From an uncultured Pelagibacteraceae bacterium (GTDB taxonomy: Bacteria > Pseudomonadota > Alphaproteobacteria > Pelagibacterales > Pelagibacteraceae): a stretch of DNA of 64,000 nt. Shown piece after piece: positions 20,172 to 45,418 of the stretch. Position 1 is the first letter of the stretch; each line of letters opens with the position of its first letter. The notes below the pieces were generated by a model. That model had not been told where the DNA came from. It worked only from the letters and a program-made list of their open reading frames with translations, and did no database searches. Position numbers and translations under genes: made by a program. The stretch is from the NCBI GenBank assembly GCA_902569785.1, contig CACFVO010000003.1, positions 34,750 through 98,749 on the forward strand. Reading direction: 5' to 3'.

Positions 20172-20611
20172 GAATTATTATTATTATCTCTAGTATTTTT
20201 TTTTTTGAAAGTGTTTCTTTTTCTCAAGATGAATATTTTTTAACTTTACGTTATAACAAAGTTAATCTTAGACAAGGTCCATCTCGTGATTATCCAATTA
20301 AAATTTTCTATAAAAAAAAATTTTTACCTGTTTTAATACAGGATAAATCTGATAATTTTAGAAAAATTAGAGATCATGAAAATAATACCGGTTGGATTCA
20401 TGTATCTCAACTTTCAAAAAAGAAAGCTGCAATAGTAATTGATGAAGAATTGATAATGTTCAAAAATCCAACAATTTATTCACAACCAATAGCCATACTT
20501 AAGAAAGGACGTCTTACGCAAATTATAAAATGTAAAGAAATTTGGTGTAAGGGTAAGTCTGACAAATACACAGGATGGTTAAAAAAAGATAGTTTATGGG
20601 GCCGACTTTAA
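20165..20611 (+). CDS. Periplasmic bacterial SH3-domain protein
   Basis: A 148-aa protein with a hydrophobic N-terminal signal (about 1-20). A bacterial SH3-like domain follows, marked by LRYNKVNLRQGPSRDYPI, the typical start of SH3b repeats, and GWIHVSQLS. A second, weaker copy ends at GWLKKDSLWG. SH3b proteins often bind cell-wall material. The start overlaps the previous gene by 7 bp and the end overlaps the convergent DUF2061 gene by 4 bp. Confidence 0.75.
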   Translation: MLRIIIIISSIFFFESVSFSQDEYFLTLRYNKVNLRQGPSRDYPIKIFYKKKFLPVLIQDKSDNFRKIRDHENNTGWIHVSQLSKKKAAIVIDEELIMFKNPTIYSQPIAILKKGRLTQIIKCKEIWCKGKSDKYTGWLKKDSLWGRL

Positions 20612-20850
20612 TTTTTTACTTTTGAAGCCCAAAATTTATCTAAAAGAAAGTACCAAATCGCATTAGCTAATGGTTCAACTATAGCATCTGTAAGTGCAAT
20701 CATGAATGAGACATCTGCTATGGCCATTAAAACAACAATTGCTATTGCAAAATGACCAATCGTATAGATTATTGTTCTAAGTATTGATCCTTTATTATTT
20801 TTATAAATATTTTTAGCTGTTGAAAAAATACCCTGTGTTAATTCTGTCAT
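20608..20850 (-). CDS. Small DUF2061-like membrane protein
   Basis: An 80-aa protein with two hydrophobic helices. The stretch SILRTIIYTIGHFAIAIVVL and the ending ANAIWYFLLDKFWASK resemble DUF2061, a family of small uncharacterised inner-membrane proteins. It is coupled to the upstream small membrane gene by an ATGA overlap. No function is known. Confidence 0.65.
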   Translation of the reverse strand: MTELTQGIFSTAKNIYKNNKGSILRTIIYTIGHFAIAIVVLMAIADVSFMIALTDAIVEPLANAIWYFLLDKFWASKVKN

Positions 20851-21089
20851 TTAGTTAAATCTCTCCGTGGATCTTTAATTTTTTTTACTTTATCTAAAAC
20901 TCCAGATATTTTTGCCGTAATATATATAGTATAAACTATTGCAAAGCCTAAGGCCATTGTTGATAGAACAGTATATATTGCTGATAAAATTCTTTCTTCA
21001 AACCAATTTTCTACTCCAGAATTTGAATGGTATAAAATATTCCAGAATAAAACAAAAGAGACTTCATAAATTAGTATTAATTTAAACAT
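20847..21089 (-). CDS. Small hypothetical membrane protein
   Basis: An 80-aa protein with two predicted transmembrane helices (about 3-18 and 35-60) and a basic C-terminal tail KKIKDPRRDLTK. I do not recognise the family. Translational coupling to the next gene (ATGA) suggests that the two membrane proteins work together. The gene starts 26 bp after the katG stop, so it could be carried on the katG transcript. Confidence 0.6.
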   Translation of the reverse strand: MFKLILIYEVSFVLFWNILYHSNSGVENWFEERILSAIYTVLSTMALGFAIVYTIYITAKISGVLDKVKKIKDPRRDLTK

Positions 21090-21114: not shown

Positions 21115-23277
<2,163 letters not shown>

Positions 23278-23296: not shown

Positions 23297-23323
23297 TCCA
23301 GTTTATAATTATTCTAAACTGGA
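23297..23323 (-). promoter_or_regulatory. Operator: 27-bp palindrome with Irr/PerR-like box at katG promoter
   Basis: TCCAGTTTA (23297-23305) and TAAACTGGA (23315-23323) form perfect 9-bp arms around a 9-nt spacer. On the minus strand the core reads TTTAGAATAATTATAAA, one mismatch from the rhizobial iron-control element TTTAGAANNNTTCTAAA. On the plus strand TTATAATTATTCTAA is one mismatch from the PerR box TTATAATNATTATAA. It lies between irr and katG and covers the spacer and -10 of the katG promoter. No U tract follows, so it is not a good terminator. Confidence 0.75.
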
Positions 23324-23329
23324 AGTCAA
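23302..23329 (-). promoter_or_regulatory. Sigma-70-type promoter of katG
   Basis: On the minus strand TTGACT (23329-23324) and TATAAA (23307-23302) are separated by 16 bp, close to the housekeeping consensus TTGACA-N17-TATAAT. Transcription would begin near 23295, about 24 nt before the katG ATG. The palindromic box overlaps the spacer and -10, a classic repressor arrangement. Confidence 0.65.
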
Positions 23330-23337
23330 TATGAAAG

Positions 23338-23751
23338 TTATTTCTTTTGTAAACTGATTACAATCTCTAGATCTTTAATCTTTTTTCCTTTAGGTGGATT
23401 AGGAATTTTCTTTAAAATAACTTCTTGATAATCAATATCAGTAAGTTTTTTTGTTTGAGGATCATAGAAATGATGGTGCGACTTAATGTTCGTATCATAA
23501 TAGCTTTTACTATTATTGGTTAAAATTTCTCTTATGTGTCCAGCTTTCTTAAAAGCTTCAACAGTATTGTAAATAGTGGCTAAAGAAATTCTTGTCTGCC
23601 CTTTTCTATTAACAACTTTATTTAATGTTTCAGCTGTAAAATGAAAAGTTTCTTTTCTATCAAACAATTTTTTAGCTATTAAAATTCTTTGCTTGGTTGG
23701 TCTTAAGTTAGATGATCTTAGTTTATTTATAATTTCTTTTTTTTGGTGCAT
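23338..23751 (-). CDS. irr: Irr-type Fur-family transcriptional regulator
   Basis: Fur-superfamily regulator of about 137 aa. The ORF track opens at a TTG (23757); the ATG at 23751 (MHQKKEIINKLRSSNLRPTKQR) is preferred. The winged-helix part has LRPTKQRILIAKKLF and ISLATIYNTVEAFKKAGHIRE. The triple histidine in SHHHFYD is typical of Irr, the haem/iron and peroxide-linked regulator of alphaproteobacteria. Its location beside fabA is a common alphaproteobacterial arrangement. A PerR-like role is an alternative. The matching operator before katG, the next gene, supports the call. Confidence 0.85.
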   Translation of the reverse strand: MHQKKEIINKLRSSNLRPTKQRILIAKKLFDRKETFHFTAETLNKVVNRKGQTRISLATIYNTVEAFKKAGHIREILTNNSKSYYDTNIKSHHHFYDPQTKKLTDIDYQEVILKKIPNPPKGKKIKDLEIVISLQKK

Positions 23752-23842: not shown

Positions 23843-24346
23843 ATGCAAAAAAATAGTTTTAATTATGAGGAATTGATTGCTTGTGGCAATGGAGAATTAT
23901 TTGGAGAAGGTAATGCCAAGCTTCCTTTGCCTCCAATGTTAATGTTTGACAGAATTACTGAAATTAAAAAAGATATAGGTGAGTTTAAAAAAGGTTTTAT
24001 AAAAGCAGAACTAGATATAAAAGATAATTTATGGTTTTTTGATTGTCATTTTAAAAATGATCCGGTTATGCCAGGTTGTCTAGGATTAGATGCGATGTGG
24101 CAATTGGTTGGCTTTTATTTGGGATGGATTGGAGAACCAGGAAAAGGAAGAGCACTAGGTGTCAATACTGTAAAATTTACTGGGGAAGTTCTAAAAAAAG
24201 CCAAAATGGCAACTTATGAAATAAATATGAAAAGAATTTTAAAAAAAGAAGGTGCTGTAGTTGGTCTTGCTAATGGTATATTGAGTGCCGATGGAAAGAT
24301 AATTTACAAAGCTGAAAATTTAAAAGTAGGGTTATTTAAATCATGA
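23843..24346 (+). CDS. fabA: 3-hydroxydecanoyl-ACP dehydratase/isomerase FabA
   Basis: Hot-dog-fold enzyme of 167 aa for anaerobic-type unsaturated fatty acid synthesis. It dehydrates 3-hydroxydecanoyl-ACP and isomerises trans-2 to cis-3-decenoyl-ACP. The active-site stretch [20 protein letters not shown] holds the catalytic His and Asp. [10 protein letters not shown] near the start is also typical. It overlaps fabB by 4 bp (ATGA), and the two enzymes work in sequence. Confidence 0.97.
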
Positions 24347-25554
24347 AAAGAGTAGTAGTAACAGGTATTGGAATAGTGTCTTGTCTTGGAAATAATCAAC
24401 AAGAAGTTTATCAATCTCTTCTGAACTCGAAATCAGGAATATCTTTTTCAGAAGAATACAAAGAACATAATTTAAAGAGCCACATTCACGGAAAACCTAA
24501 TATTAAACTTCAAGATCATGTTGATAGAAAAACAATGAGATTCATGGGATCAGGTTCAGCTTATAATTACATTGCTATGAAAGAAGCGGTTAAAGATTCA
24601 GGATTAGAAGAAAAAGATATAAGTAATATCTCAACTGGAATTGTTATGGGTTCAGGTGGTCCTTCAATAGAAAATGTTATCTTAGCAGCAGATAAAACTA
24701 GAGCAAAAACTCCAAAATTAATGGGTCCTTTTATTGTGCCTAGAACAATGGCAAGTACAGCTTCTGCAACTTTGGCTGTTCCTTTCAAAATTAAAGGAGT
24801 AAATTACACTATGAGTTCTGCTTGTGCTACAAGTGGACACTGTATAGGAAATTCAGTTGAACTTATACAATCTGGTAAACAAAAAATTATGTTTGCGGGT
24901 GGAAGTGAAGAACTACATTGGGCTATGACTGCAATGTTTGATGCTATGACAGCTTTATCTTCAAAATATAATGATACTCCTGAAAAAGCTTCAAGAGCAT
25001 ATGATAAAACTAGAGATGGATTTGTTATTGCTGGAGGCGGAGGAGTTTTAGTTCTTGAAGAATATGAGCACGCAAAAGCGAGAGGTGCTAAAATTTATGC
25101 TGAGATAACTGGATATGGAGCAACATCAGATGGGTATGATATGGTAGCGCCCTCTGGAGAAGGAGCCGTTAGGTGCATGAAGATTGCATTAAAAACAACT
25201 AGAAATAAAATAGATTATATTAACACTCATGGTACATCTACTCCTGTAGGAGATATTACAGAATTAAAAGCCATAGGTGAAACGTTTAAAGATAAAATTC
25301 CAAAAATAAGTTCTACTAAATCTTTATCGGGTCATCCTTTGGGTGCTGCATCAGTACATGAAGCTATCTATAGTTTAATAATGATGAAAAATAATTTTAT
25401 AACTGGATCCGCTAATATCAATGAAATGGATGAAGAAGCAAAAAAATTTCCAATAGTTAGTAAAACTGAAAAAGAAGTAACTTTAAATGCAGTTATGTCT
25501 AATAGTTTTGGGTTTGGTGGAACAAATGCAACATTAATTTTTGAAAAGGTATAA
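24343..25554 (+). CDS. fabB: 3-oxoacyl-ACP synthase I FabB
   Basis: Condensing enzyme of 403 aa that elongates the cis-3-decenoyl product of FabA. The catalytic triad is visible as Cys in [11 protein letters not shown], His in [11 protein letters not shown] and His in [14 protein letters not shown] thiolase-fold glycine loop [11 protein letters not shown] lies at the C terminus. Its position between fabA and fabI marks it as FabB rather than FabF. Confidence 0.96.
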
Positions 25555-26340
25555 ATGAGTTTAGCTAAAGGTAAAAAAGGACTGATTATGGGTGTAGCCA
25601 ACGATCGATCAATTGCTTGGGGCATATCACAAAAACTTGCAGGAGCTGGTGCTGAATTGGCTTTTACATATCTTGGAGATGCATTAAAAAAAAGAGTTGT
25701 TCCATTAGCTAAATCTCTAAATTCTGAATTTACATTAAGTTGCAACGTAGAAAATAAGCAAGAGGTAGTAAAACTTTTTGAAGATATCAAAGCAAAATGG
25801 GGGCAAATTGATTTTGTTGTTCATGCAGTGGCTTTTTCAGATAAAGCAGAATTATCAGGTGAATATTTAAATACTACAAGAGAAAATTTTTTAAAAAGCA
25901 TGTTGGTTTCATGTTTTTCTTTTACTGAAGTTGCAAAAGAAGCCTCTAAGATAATGAAAAAAGGTGGAAGCATGCTAACTTTAACTTACGAGTCTACTAA
26001 AGCAATTCCTAACTATAACGTAATGGGTGTTTGTAAATCTGCTCTAGAAGCAAGTGTAAAATATTTAGCTAGAGATCTAGGTTCAAAGGGTATTAGGGTT
26101 AACGCTATTAGCGCAGGTCCAATTAAAACCCTTGCAGCATCTGCTATAGGAGATGCAAAGTTTCTTTACAAATGGAATGAAGATCACTCTTTTTTGAAAA
26201 GAAACGTAGACATAAATGATGTAGGAAATTCAGCTTTATATTTACTAAGTGATTTAGCTTCTGGTGTTACCGGAGAGATTCATTATGTTGATGCTGGATA
26301 TAATAAAGTAGGTATGCCTAATCCTAAAAATATCTCTTAA
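25555..26340 (+). CDS. fabI: Enoyl-ACP reductase FabI
   Basis: NADH-dependent enoyl-ACP reductase of the short-chain dehydrogenase superfamily, 261 aa. The cofactor loop is MGVANDRSIAWGI, typical of FabI. The active-site region has a Tyr in YNVMGVCKSALEASVKYLARDLG with Lys in the FabI-type spacing. GIRVNAISAGPIKTLAASAI follows. It carries out the last step of each fatty acid elongation cycle. It starts directly after the fabB stop, completing a fabA-fabB-fabI operon. Confidence 0.95.
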   Translation: MSLAKGKKGLIMGVANDRSIAWGISQKLAGAGAELAFTYLGDALKKRVVPLAKSLNSEFTLSCNVENKQEVVKLFEDIKAKWGQIDFVVHAVAFSDKAELSGEYLNTTRENFLKSMLVSCFSFTEVAKEASKIMKKGGSMLTLTYESTKAIPNYNVMGVCKSALEASVKYLARDLGSKGIRVNAISAGPIKTLAASAIGDAKFLYKWNEDHSFLKRNVDINDVGNSALYLLSDLASGVTGEIHYVDAGYNKVGMPNPKNIS

Positions 26341-38998: not shown

Positions 38999-39424
38999 TT
39001 ATTTTTTAATTTTTGAACAGTACAGTTCTAATTTATGATCAACAAGTTTGTAGCCTAATTTTTTTGCTACTTCATGTTGTAATTTTTCTATTTCTTTGTC
39101 TACAAATTCTACTATCTCGCCACTATTAATATCTATTAAGTGATCATGATGTTCGTCTGGTGACTGCTCATATCTTGCTTTACCACCTTTAAAATCATGT
39201 TTTTCAACAATTCCCGACTCTTCAAATAATTTTACAGTTCTATAAACTGTAGCAATACTAATCTTATTATCAATTGCACTAACTCTTTTATGTAATTCAT
39301 CAACATCGGGATGATCTTTTGCACCGTACTTTTCTTTTGAGTCAGCCATAACTTGAGCTATAATCTTCCTTTGGTCTGTAAGCCTCACTCCTTTAGCCTT
39401 GCATTTTTTTTCTATGGTGTTCAT
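38999..39424 (-). CDS. fur: Fur/Mur-type metal-responsive regulator
   Basis: Fur-family repressor of 141 aa, distinct from the Irr-type protein at 23.3 kb. It has GVRLTDQRKIIAQVM, ISIATVYRTVKLFEESGIVEKHDF and the metal-binding stretch DEHHDHLIDINSGEIVEF. In alphaproteobacteria the Fur protein encoded beside miaB often responds to manganese (Mur) or iron; the sequence alone does not settle which. There is no C-terminal CxxC zinc site; a lone Cys is in ELYCSKIKK. Confidence 0.9.
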   Translation of the reverse strand: MNTIEKKCKAKGVRLTDQRKIIAQVMADSKEKYGAKDHPDVDELHKRVSAIDNKISIATVYRTVKLFEESGIVEKHDFKGGKARYEQSPDEHHDHLIDINSGEIVEFVDKEIEKLQHEVAKKLGYKLVDHKLELYCSKIKK

Positions 39425-43891: not shown

Positions 43892-45418
43892 TTAATTTGT
43901 TCTAAAATTTCTTATTTTTAATACTCCTGTTAAATAACACGATATCAAATAAACACTAGCAACAAAACAAACAATAATCAGTAAATAAACTGATTTATAT
44001 TTATAAGTATAGTCTAAATAATCTGAATAATAATCTAAAGCGAACGTCAAAAGAAAAGACATCAAAATTGTACTTAAAATTATTTTGAAAATATTTTTTG
44101 GTAGATAGCTTTTTAGCAATAAATAATTTTTCTCATTTAGAAAATATATATAAATCATCACGCCAATCCATGTGGAGATAGATGTGGCAATTGGAATTAT
44201 AATAAAACCAATTTTTTTGAAGAAAGTTATGCTTATTAAAATGTTTAATAGAACTATAAAAGCAGAAATATAAAATGGTGTCTTTGTATTATTTCTTGCA
44301 AAAAAGAAGTTTGATAAAATCTTAATAAGAGCAAACGCAGGTATTCCGTAACCAAAATATTTCAAGGCAGAAGATGTCATATTAATATTTTCAATATTAA
44401 AAGAACCATATCCAAATAATGCATTCACAATTTGTTCCGAAGCTAAAATTAAACCTAAGCTAGCTGGTATCGATAATAAAAGAGAGAGTTCTATAGATCT
44501 GCTCTGAATATTGGAAATTTTTAAAATATTTTTCTGTTTAAAGGCTTTTGATAAAACTGGTAAAGAAACAGTTCCTACAGCTATACCTGCAATAGCTAAA
44601 TTGATCTGATAAATTCGATCAGCATAATATAGATAAGATACTGCACTCGCTTCAAAAGAAGCTATAATTGTGCCAACTAAAATATTTATCTGTGTAACTC
44701 CTGAAGATAAAATACTAGGTAAAAGTTTTTTAAAAAAAAATTTTACTTTACTACTTAATTTAATTTTAAATTCAACAGATGGTTTGTAATATTTTCTTGT
44801 AAAGAATGTTAAAAATAATAGTTGAATTATTCCTGATAAAGTAACTCCATAAGATAATTGCTTAGCAAAATCTAAATTAAAAAAATAAGAAATTAATAGA
44901 GTTAATATCAAAACAATATTTAGTATTATTGGGGCAGCGGCAGCGGCGGCAAATTTATTATTAGAATTTAAAATTCCCGAAAAAAAAGATGAGATACTTA
45001 CAAATAATAAAAAAGGAAATGTTATTCTTGTAAATTCTACAGCAAGATTAAATTTTTCACTATTTTCAAAAAATCCTGGTGCAATTAAATAAACTAGATA
45101 GGGTGTAAATATCTCAACAAGTAAAATTATTAGAAAAAGTACTAAAATTAAAATATTTAAAACTTCGTCAGCAAATTTTTTTCCATTCATCTGATCTTGA
45201 GTTTTTGCAGAAACATAGCTTGGTATAAATGCAGCATTAAATGTTCCCTCTGCAAATAAACGCCTAAATGTGTTTGGTAGTCTAAAGGCGACAAAAAATG
45301 CGTCTGCATAAACTGATGCACCTAAAAATATTGCAATTAATATATCTCTAAGATAACCTAAAACCCTACTTAGCAAGGTAAAAAAACTAAAAACATATGT
45401 TGATGATAACAAGTTCAT
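43892..45418 (-). CDS. murJ: Lipid II flippase MurJ
   Basis: MOP-superfamily membrane protein of 508 aa with about 14 hydrophobic segments, moving lipid II across the inner membrane for peptidoglycan synthesis. The typical N-terminal block is TLLSRVLGYLRDILIAIFLGAS, then DAFFVAFRLPNTFRRLFAEGTFNAAFIP, which is diagnostic of MurJ. It is the first gene of the long minus-strand block and is divergent from maeB across 76 bp. Confidence 0.95.
   Translation of the reverse strand: MNLLSSTYVFSFFTLLSRVLGYLRDILIAIFLGASVYADAFFVAFRLPNTFRRLFAEGTFNAAFIPSYVSAKTQDQMNGKKFADEVLNILILVLFLIILLVEIFTPYLVYLIAPGFFENSEKFNLAVEFTRITFPFLLFVSISSFFSGILNSNNKFAAAAAAPIILNIVLILTLLISYFFNLDFAKQLSYGVTLSGIIQLLFLTFFTRKYYKPSVEFKIKLSSKVKFFFKKLLPSILSSGVTQINILVGTIIASFEASAVSYLYYADRIYQINLAIAGIAVGTVSLPVLSKAFKQKNILKISNIQSRSIELSLLLSIPASLGLILASEQIVNALFGYGSFNIENINMTSSALKYFGYGIPAFALIKILSNFFFARNNTKTPFYISAFIVLLNILISITFFKKIGFIIIPIATSISTWIGVMIYIYFLNEKNYLLLKSYLPKNIFKIILSTILMSFLLTFALDYYSDYLDYTYKYKSVYLLIIVCFVASVYLISCYLTGVLKIRNFRTN

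Follow-up and report, generated by a model that had tools for sequence, protein, structure and literature searches.

The katG promoter in the analysed window, i.e., the whole 64-kb stretch of DNA from an uncultured Pelagibacteraceae bacterium, is overlaid by a palindrome that likely represents an operator of the Fur-family regulator Irr; judged from its sequence and position, Irr would repress katG by covering the promoter, with peroxide and/or haem relieving this repression. The operator-like site is conserved in SAR11 relatives and linked to irr and an adjacent peroxidase gene, and the enzyme encoded behind it has been exchanged.

Locus, regulator and promoter palindrome

The katG gene (21115..23271, minus strand) encodes a catalase-peroxidase HPI of 718 aa with a CPVMHG N-terminus, representing a full-length equivalog match (TIGR00198, 1112.9 bits; cut-off 770.25). 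Upstream on the same strand follows irr (23338..23751), predicted from its ORF and profile matches to encode a regulator of 137 aa, with ATG 23751 being the probable start; 66 bp separate the irr stop at 23338 from the katG ATG at 23271. Divergently oriented from irr, fabA-fabB-fabI (23843..26340, plus strand) form a conserved context identifying the locus in relatives; judged by the Irr protein, the closest named relatives are single cells of uncultured Pelagibacteraceae. Downstream of katG (20608-21089, minus strand) are two overlapping ORFs of 80 aa each, the first matching DUF2061 (membrane protein) and the second being without match. A second Fur-family gene (Fur/Mur-like, ...DEHHDHLIDINSGEIVEF...) is located at 39092-39415 (minus strand), ~15 kb from irr, an arrangement common to many relatives.

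The preliminary description had recognised an Irr-type regulator with HHH motif adjoining katG, which is borne out by NCBIfam matches, the motif itself (SHHHF) and the fabA/fabB/fabI neighbourhood. The best NCBIfam matches are IrrA (141.6 bits) and Irr (127.8 bits), compared to 72.7 bits for PerRB, 55.4 bits for PerRA and <30 bits for Fur; the scores of the window's Irr fall below the NCBI naming cut-offs (150 and 170), as do those of the tested relatives including the sister family (145–146 bits). Identity as PerR was rejected, since the PerR models did not exceed their cut-offs and scored far lower than IrrA. All 122 Irr sequences compared contain the DTN..HHHF motif, and D86, H92, H94 and D105 are invariant in Irr and align with the sensing ligands of PerR, an Asp shared by Irr and PerR having been described (PMC8638967). 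The window's Irr is devoid of cysteines, and thus of a CxxC structural zinc motif and of the PerR-type Cys4 structural zinc site; the latter is also missing in some atypical PerRs (PMC8638967). None of the 122 Irr proteins compared has the CP haem regulatory motif, which some other Irr proteins lack as well (PMC3413700).

Repeat search recovered the previously described 27-bp inverted repeat of 9-bp arms and 9-nt spacer (TCCAGTTTATAATTATTCTAAACTGGA, plus strand) at 23297..23323, proposed to be the Irr operator, its outer arms being specific to the strain. This geometry, the 9-bp arms being perfect, is equivalent to two 13-nt arms (23297-23309 and 23311-23323) that are complementary at 12 of 13 positions around a 1-nt centre. 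The operator core TTTAGAATAATTATAAA (23302..23318, minus strand), delimited by comparison and conserved columns, differs by one base from the iron control element (ICE, TTTAGAANNNTTCTAAA) and likewise by one base from the PerR box (TTATAATNATTATAA), as had been claimed. On the minus strand, in katG sense, the promoter reads TTGACT (−35 hexamer, 23329-23324), TCCAGTTTAGAATAAT (16 nt) and TATAAA (−10 hexamer, 23307-23302). The −10 hexamer is at the same time the downstream half of the operator, and the repeat covers the whole spacer as well as the −10. This confirms the TTGACT-N16-TATAAA promoter beneath the palindrome; the end at 23329 given in the preliminary description includes the −35 hexamer. 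TATAAA is missing from the promoter-scanner list, because the scanner requires T at position 6.

Dinucleotide shuffling of the 66-bp gap (5000 runs) produced a 12/13 palindrome with a probability of 0.0008, an ICE with ≤1 mismatch with 0.001 and a PerR box with ≤1 mismatch with 0.0006, the perfect 9-bp arms alone being less exceptional (0.014). Only one palindrome of equal quality exists elsewhere in the 64 kb, at 44719, consisting mostly of A/T runs. Across the whole window, ICEs with ≤2 mismatches are not in excess (5 found vs 5.3 expected), so that the significance of the site rests on its position and on its conservation in relatives.

Conservation of the box and its association with irr

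Among 169 genomes of the same genus (SAR11), irr is present in 125, katG in 133 and both in 118. According to gaps taken from gene coordinates, 117 of these 118 have irr immediately before katG, the remaining case being a contig break. Conservation of the palindrome at irr-katG junctions, on which the preliminary description had staked its proposal, was observed: the box is kept, with an ICE of ≤2 mismatches at 117 and of ≤1 mismatch at 87 of 122 junctions between irr and the next gene, nearly all of them from SAR11 and a sister family; these relatives represent non-independent samples. Dinucleotide shuffles of the 122 junctions yielded an ICE with ≤1 mismatch in 0.1 cases on average and 2 at maximum. 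The comparison is not circular, since the ICE pattern was derived from the literature and not from these sequences.

Box-centred comparison revealed a nearly invariant core, TTTAGAAT-N-ATTATAAA, in both katG types, with the flanking columns falling towards background; the outermost bases of the own strain (CCA/TGG) are not conserved in relatives. Each position of TTTAGAA is kept in all 26 katG_V and in at least 25 of 28 katG_F junctions, and many katG promoters of SAR11 have TTGAC[A/T] at a distance of 16–18 nt from TATAAA. Since TTTAGAA resides in a spacer that requires no such sequence, promoter function alone does not explain its conservation. In two genomes katG is apparently split, by a frameshift (G033:C15:11265-13413) or an in-frame TGA (G058:C5:4479-6627), reflecting either assembly error or decay. 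Two others of the same genus (G021 and G193, 94 and 90 % complete) seem to be missing the whole peroxide module, irr, katG and rbr (rubrerythrin) all not being found.

Direct control of katG by Irr, as originally proposed, is strongly supported by comparison, in that the box is not only conserved, but also follows a moved katG and is absent beside oxyR. In two genomes of a different family (G074, G100), katG is located after a tRNA, apart from irr, and has retained the box. Conversely, four genomes of the same genus carry katG beside a divergent oxyR, with both irr and box absent (L276-L279, L054, L055, L286, L287); their OxyR contains the GHCLRSQTLSFC motif. In these genomes, katG is thus relocated and accompanied by another peroxide regulator, an arrangement that probably reflects a single event, as the four are close relatives. 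The main loose end is formed by three genomes without irr at the locus (G005, G060, G104), where katG is nevertheless preceded by a degraded but recognisable box (12.6–17.5 vs 21.2 bits), implying either that decay is slow or that another protein reads the box. The irr gene itself has a box of its own in 85 of 110 promoters, suggesting autoregulation of irr; none occurs in the window's clade, and a scan of the window's own irr promoter yielded no box.

The putative Irr regulon looks narrow, comprising irr and one adjacent peroxidase gene. When 855.7 kb of the own genome (assembly of 857 kb, ~76 % complete) were scanned with a weight matrix, the katG site ranked top with 21.1 bits, followed by the next intergenic site with 10.6 bits. 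In the nearly complete genomes G187 and G189, zero-mismatch sites occur only as a pair at the irr-katG locus, to which those examined in G192 and G208 also belong. An extension of the box to iron and haem genes across SAR11, as envisaged in the preliminary description, did not materialise: none of these genes was among the high-scoring sites of the genomes scanned, the strong ones being confined to irr and the adjacent peroxidase gene. A wider iron/haem regulon was therefore rejected, the 855.7 kb containing no other strong intergenic site and the lower-scoring ones preceding unrelated genes; because these very boxes were used to build the matrix, Irr sites that are weaker or differ in sequence may have escaped it. 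A near-match recurring in relatives (TTTACAATCATTATAAA) was likewise discarded, since in the loci that were read it falls inside a gene for a DNA polymerase-like protein. G062 of the sister family has a perfect ICE in front of fabA and a further strong site at the start of an opposite-strand gene (L254:1501-1517, L248:1501-1517), the product of which presumably resembles cyclopropane-fatty-acid synthase.

Peroxidase genes behind irr

The gene following irr encodes either of two KatG types (type 1, N-terminus KCPVMHG; type 2, KCPFTGAG), a rubrerythrin or, in one case, a peroxiredoxin-like protein. Within the genus, rbr was found in exactly seven genomes, all of them with irr and without katG, so that the 125 irr-containing genomes carry either katG (118) or rbr (7), never both or neither. 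Apart from the contig-break case, the peroxidase gene adjoins irr in every irr-containing genome of the genus, and boxes are also present at rbr located after irr. The gene after irr-rbr (L281:1277-1600) encodes a Fe-S protein resembling the oxidoreductase found beside aerobic-type rubrerythrins (PMC5114695); the own assembly, which bears katG, contains neither this gene nor rbr.

When Alphaproteobacteria were sampled more widely, irr proved to be followed mostly by the gene for rubrerythrin, often with an ICE of 0–2 mismatches; the sister family displays perfect ICEs at irr-rbr, and the zero-mismatch ICE (TTTAGAANNNTTCTAAA) recurs at several irr-rbr junctions of other lineages. Considering this wide occurrence, irr-ICE-rbr is probably the older arrangement. 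Different from the perfect ICEs of the sister family, the downstream half of the box in SAR11 katG promoters is TTATAAA and thereby provides the −10. Mapped on the Irr tree, at least 13 enzyme changes are needed, a count that is only indicative, because the tree is based on few columns and irr may travel together with its neighbour. On this comparative evidence, katG of two types and once a peroxiredoxin gene displaced rubrerythrin behind the conserved putative Irr operator of SAR11.

Proposed control of katG and its alternatives

In case of simple repression, Irr formed from the gene just upstream would bind the palindrome as a variant ICE, and the Fur-family dimer on 23302-23318 would cover spacer and −10, shutting out RNA polymerase. 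Oxidation of Irr by peroxide and/or binding of haem at the HHH motif would then free the operator and allow expression of katG. Symmetry would demand TTCTAAA in the downstream operator half; the TTATAAA present instead would double as −10. In SAR11, Irr and its operator would accordingly constitute a local switch of peroxide defence, in which the enzyme was exchanged and regulator and operator were kept.

Precedents are known from other Alphaproteobacteria. In Rhodobacter sphaeroides, the rubrerythrin-like gene mbfA and ccpA, encoding a cytochrome c peroxidase, each have an ICE to which Irr binds; the 5′ end of the mbfA transcript maps inside the Irr box, and mbfA is increased ~8-fold in an irr mutant when iron is limiting and ~9-fold with H2O2 (PMC3413700). 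In Bradyrhizobium, haem-dependent loss of Irr is promoted by reactive oxygen species (PMC3413700). Based on these precedents, it is taken as most likely that Irr represses katG and that peroxide and/or haem lift this repression, against which counts the lack of binding of R. sphaeroides Irr to the katE promoter (PMC3413700). Iron limitation of Ca. P. ubique increases rbr 1.57-fold (PMC2864753), a response similar to that of R. sphaeroides mbfA; this small rise argues against iron limitation as the repressing signal.

The same rise would fit Irr as an activator of katG, e.g., under iron limitation, and Irr is indeed able to act as such (PMC3413700, PMC7762939). Activation is nonetheless improbable, since a dimer bound over spacer and −10 should block the polymerase, activators usually being bound upstream of the −35, and since mbfA of R. 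sphaeroides, with its start inside the Irr box, is increased in the irr mutant. There is a similarly small chance that the operator serves another Fur-family protein, namely the Fur/Mur-like one encoded ~15 kb away: most relatives possess this second gene, and irr-less G005 and G060 combine a Fur-like gene with a degraded box at katG. However, the box tracks irr, accompanying almost every peroxidase gene that adjoins irr as well as the majority of irr promoters; its sequence fits the Irr box, with the classical perfect ICE at irr-rbr of the sister family; and G003, also irr-less, retains the Fur-like gene, yet its katG lacks a box.

Two further readings dispense with a protein operator. The strand carrying the repeat is foldable (−10.7 kcal/mol, z −2.26) and located just past the irr stop, as would befit an RNA hairpin, i.e., a terminator of irr or a leader feature of katG. 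This explanation was rejected as highly improbable: no terminator-like site was found at the repeat and no T run follows it, the outer arm pair is often broken in relatives (C opposite C in about half of katG_V) despite a nearly invariant core, and the identical core recurs in irr and rbr promoters. Finally, selection acts on both −10 TATAAA and −35 TTGAC[A/T], such that the box could reflect mere promoter conservation with an incidental palindrome. The probability of this is close to negligible, considering that sigma-70 promoters do not impose the conserved TTTAGAA on the spacer and that oxyR-linked katG promoters are devoid of it. Repression by Irr thus remains the preferred reading.

The putative SAR11 system shares with the rhizobial/Rhodobacter Irr-ICE system a HHH-type Fur-family regulator without CxxC, a palindromic site of the TTTAGAANNNTTCTAAA type and peroxide-related targets (PMC3413700), but differs in having katG as target and TTATAAA doubling as −10, in a regulon apparently reduced to irr and one peroxidase gene, and in the lack of a CP motif. 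The Bacillus-type PerR-katA/katG system likewise comprises a Fur-family repressor beside a catalase gene, with a promoter box to which the present one has a single mismatch; however, profile scores and the missing Cys4 site set the SAR11 protein apart from PerR. OxyR-katG of the four SAR11 genomes also places a regulator for peroxide defence beside katG, but this regulator is of the LysR family and of activator type, and its locus has no Irr box and occurs in genomes without irr. In the alphaproteobacterial irr-rubrerythrin locus, irr is likewise followed immediately by the gene for a peroxide scavenger, with an ICE in the gap; the scavenger in SAR11 is now KatG of two kinds or a peroxiredoxin.

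Among the heterotrophs of the surface ocean, SAR11 is the most abundant. For Ca. P. ubique, a lack of catalase had been described, leaving the removal of H2O2 to others (PMC3033426); katG was later found to be common to most offshore SAR11 genera (PMC12636525). Irr, the ICE, control of peroxide-related genes by Irr and katG in offshore SAR11 are already known. In the open-access literature, no report was found on direct control of katG by Irr, nor on enzyme exchange behind the operator and the mutual exclusion of rbr and katG. One may tentatively speculate, at somewhat less than even chance, that Irr in SAR11 narrowed from an iron/haem regulator to a peroxide switch substituting for PerR, with the operator acting as an enzyme slot that is perhaps matched to habitat (katG offshore, rubrerythrin coastal) and that exchanges with oxyR-katG.

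For katG of SAR11, the present analysis points to a likely regulator, describes how the promoter is built and traces a history in which rubrerythrin was displaced behind an old, putative Irr operator. This allows a direct test of whether peroxide defence in minimal genomes is switched by peroxide, haem or iron, and would provide a clean example of an enzyme replaced under a conserved regulatory site.
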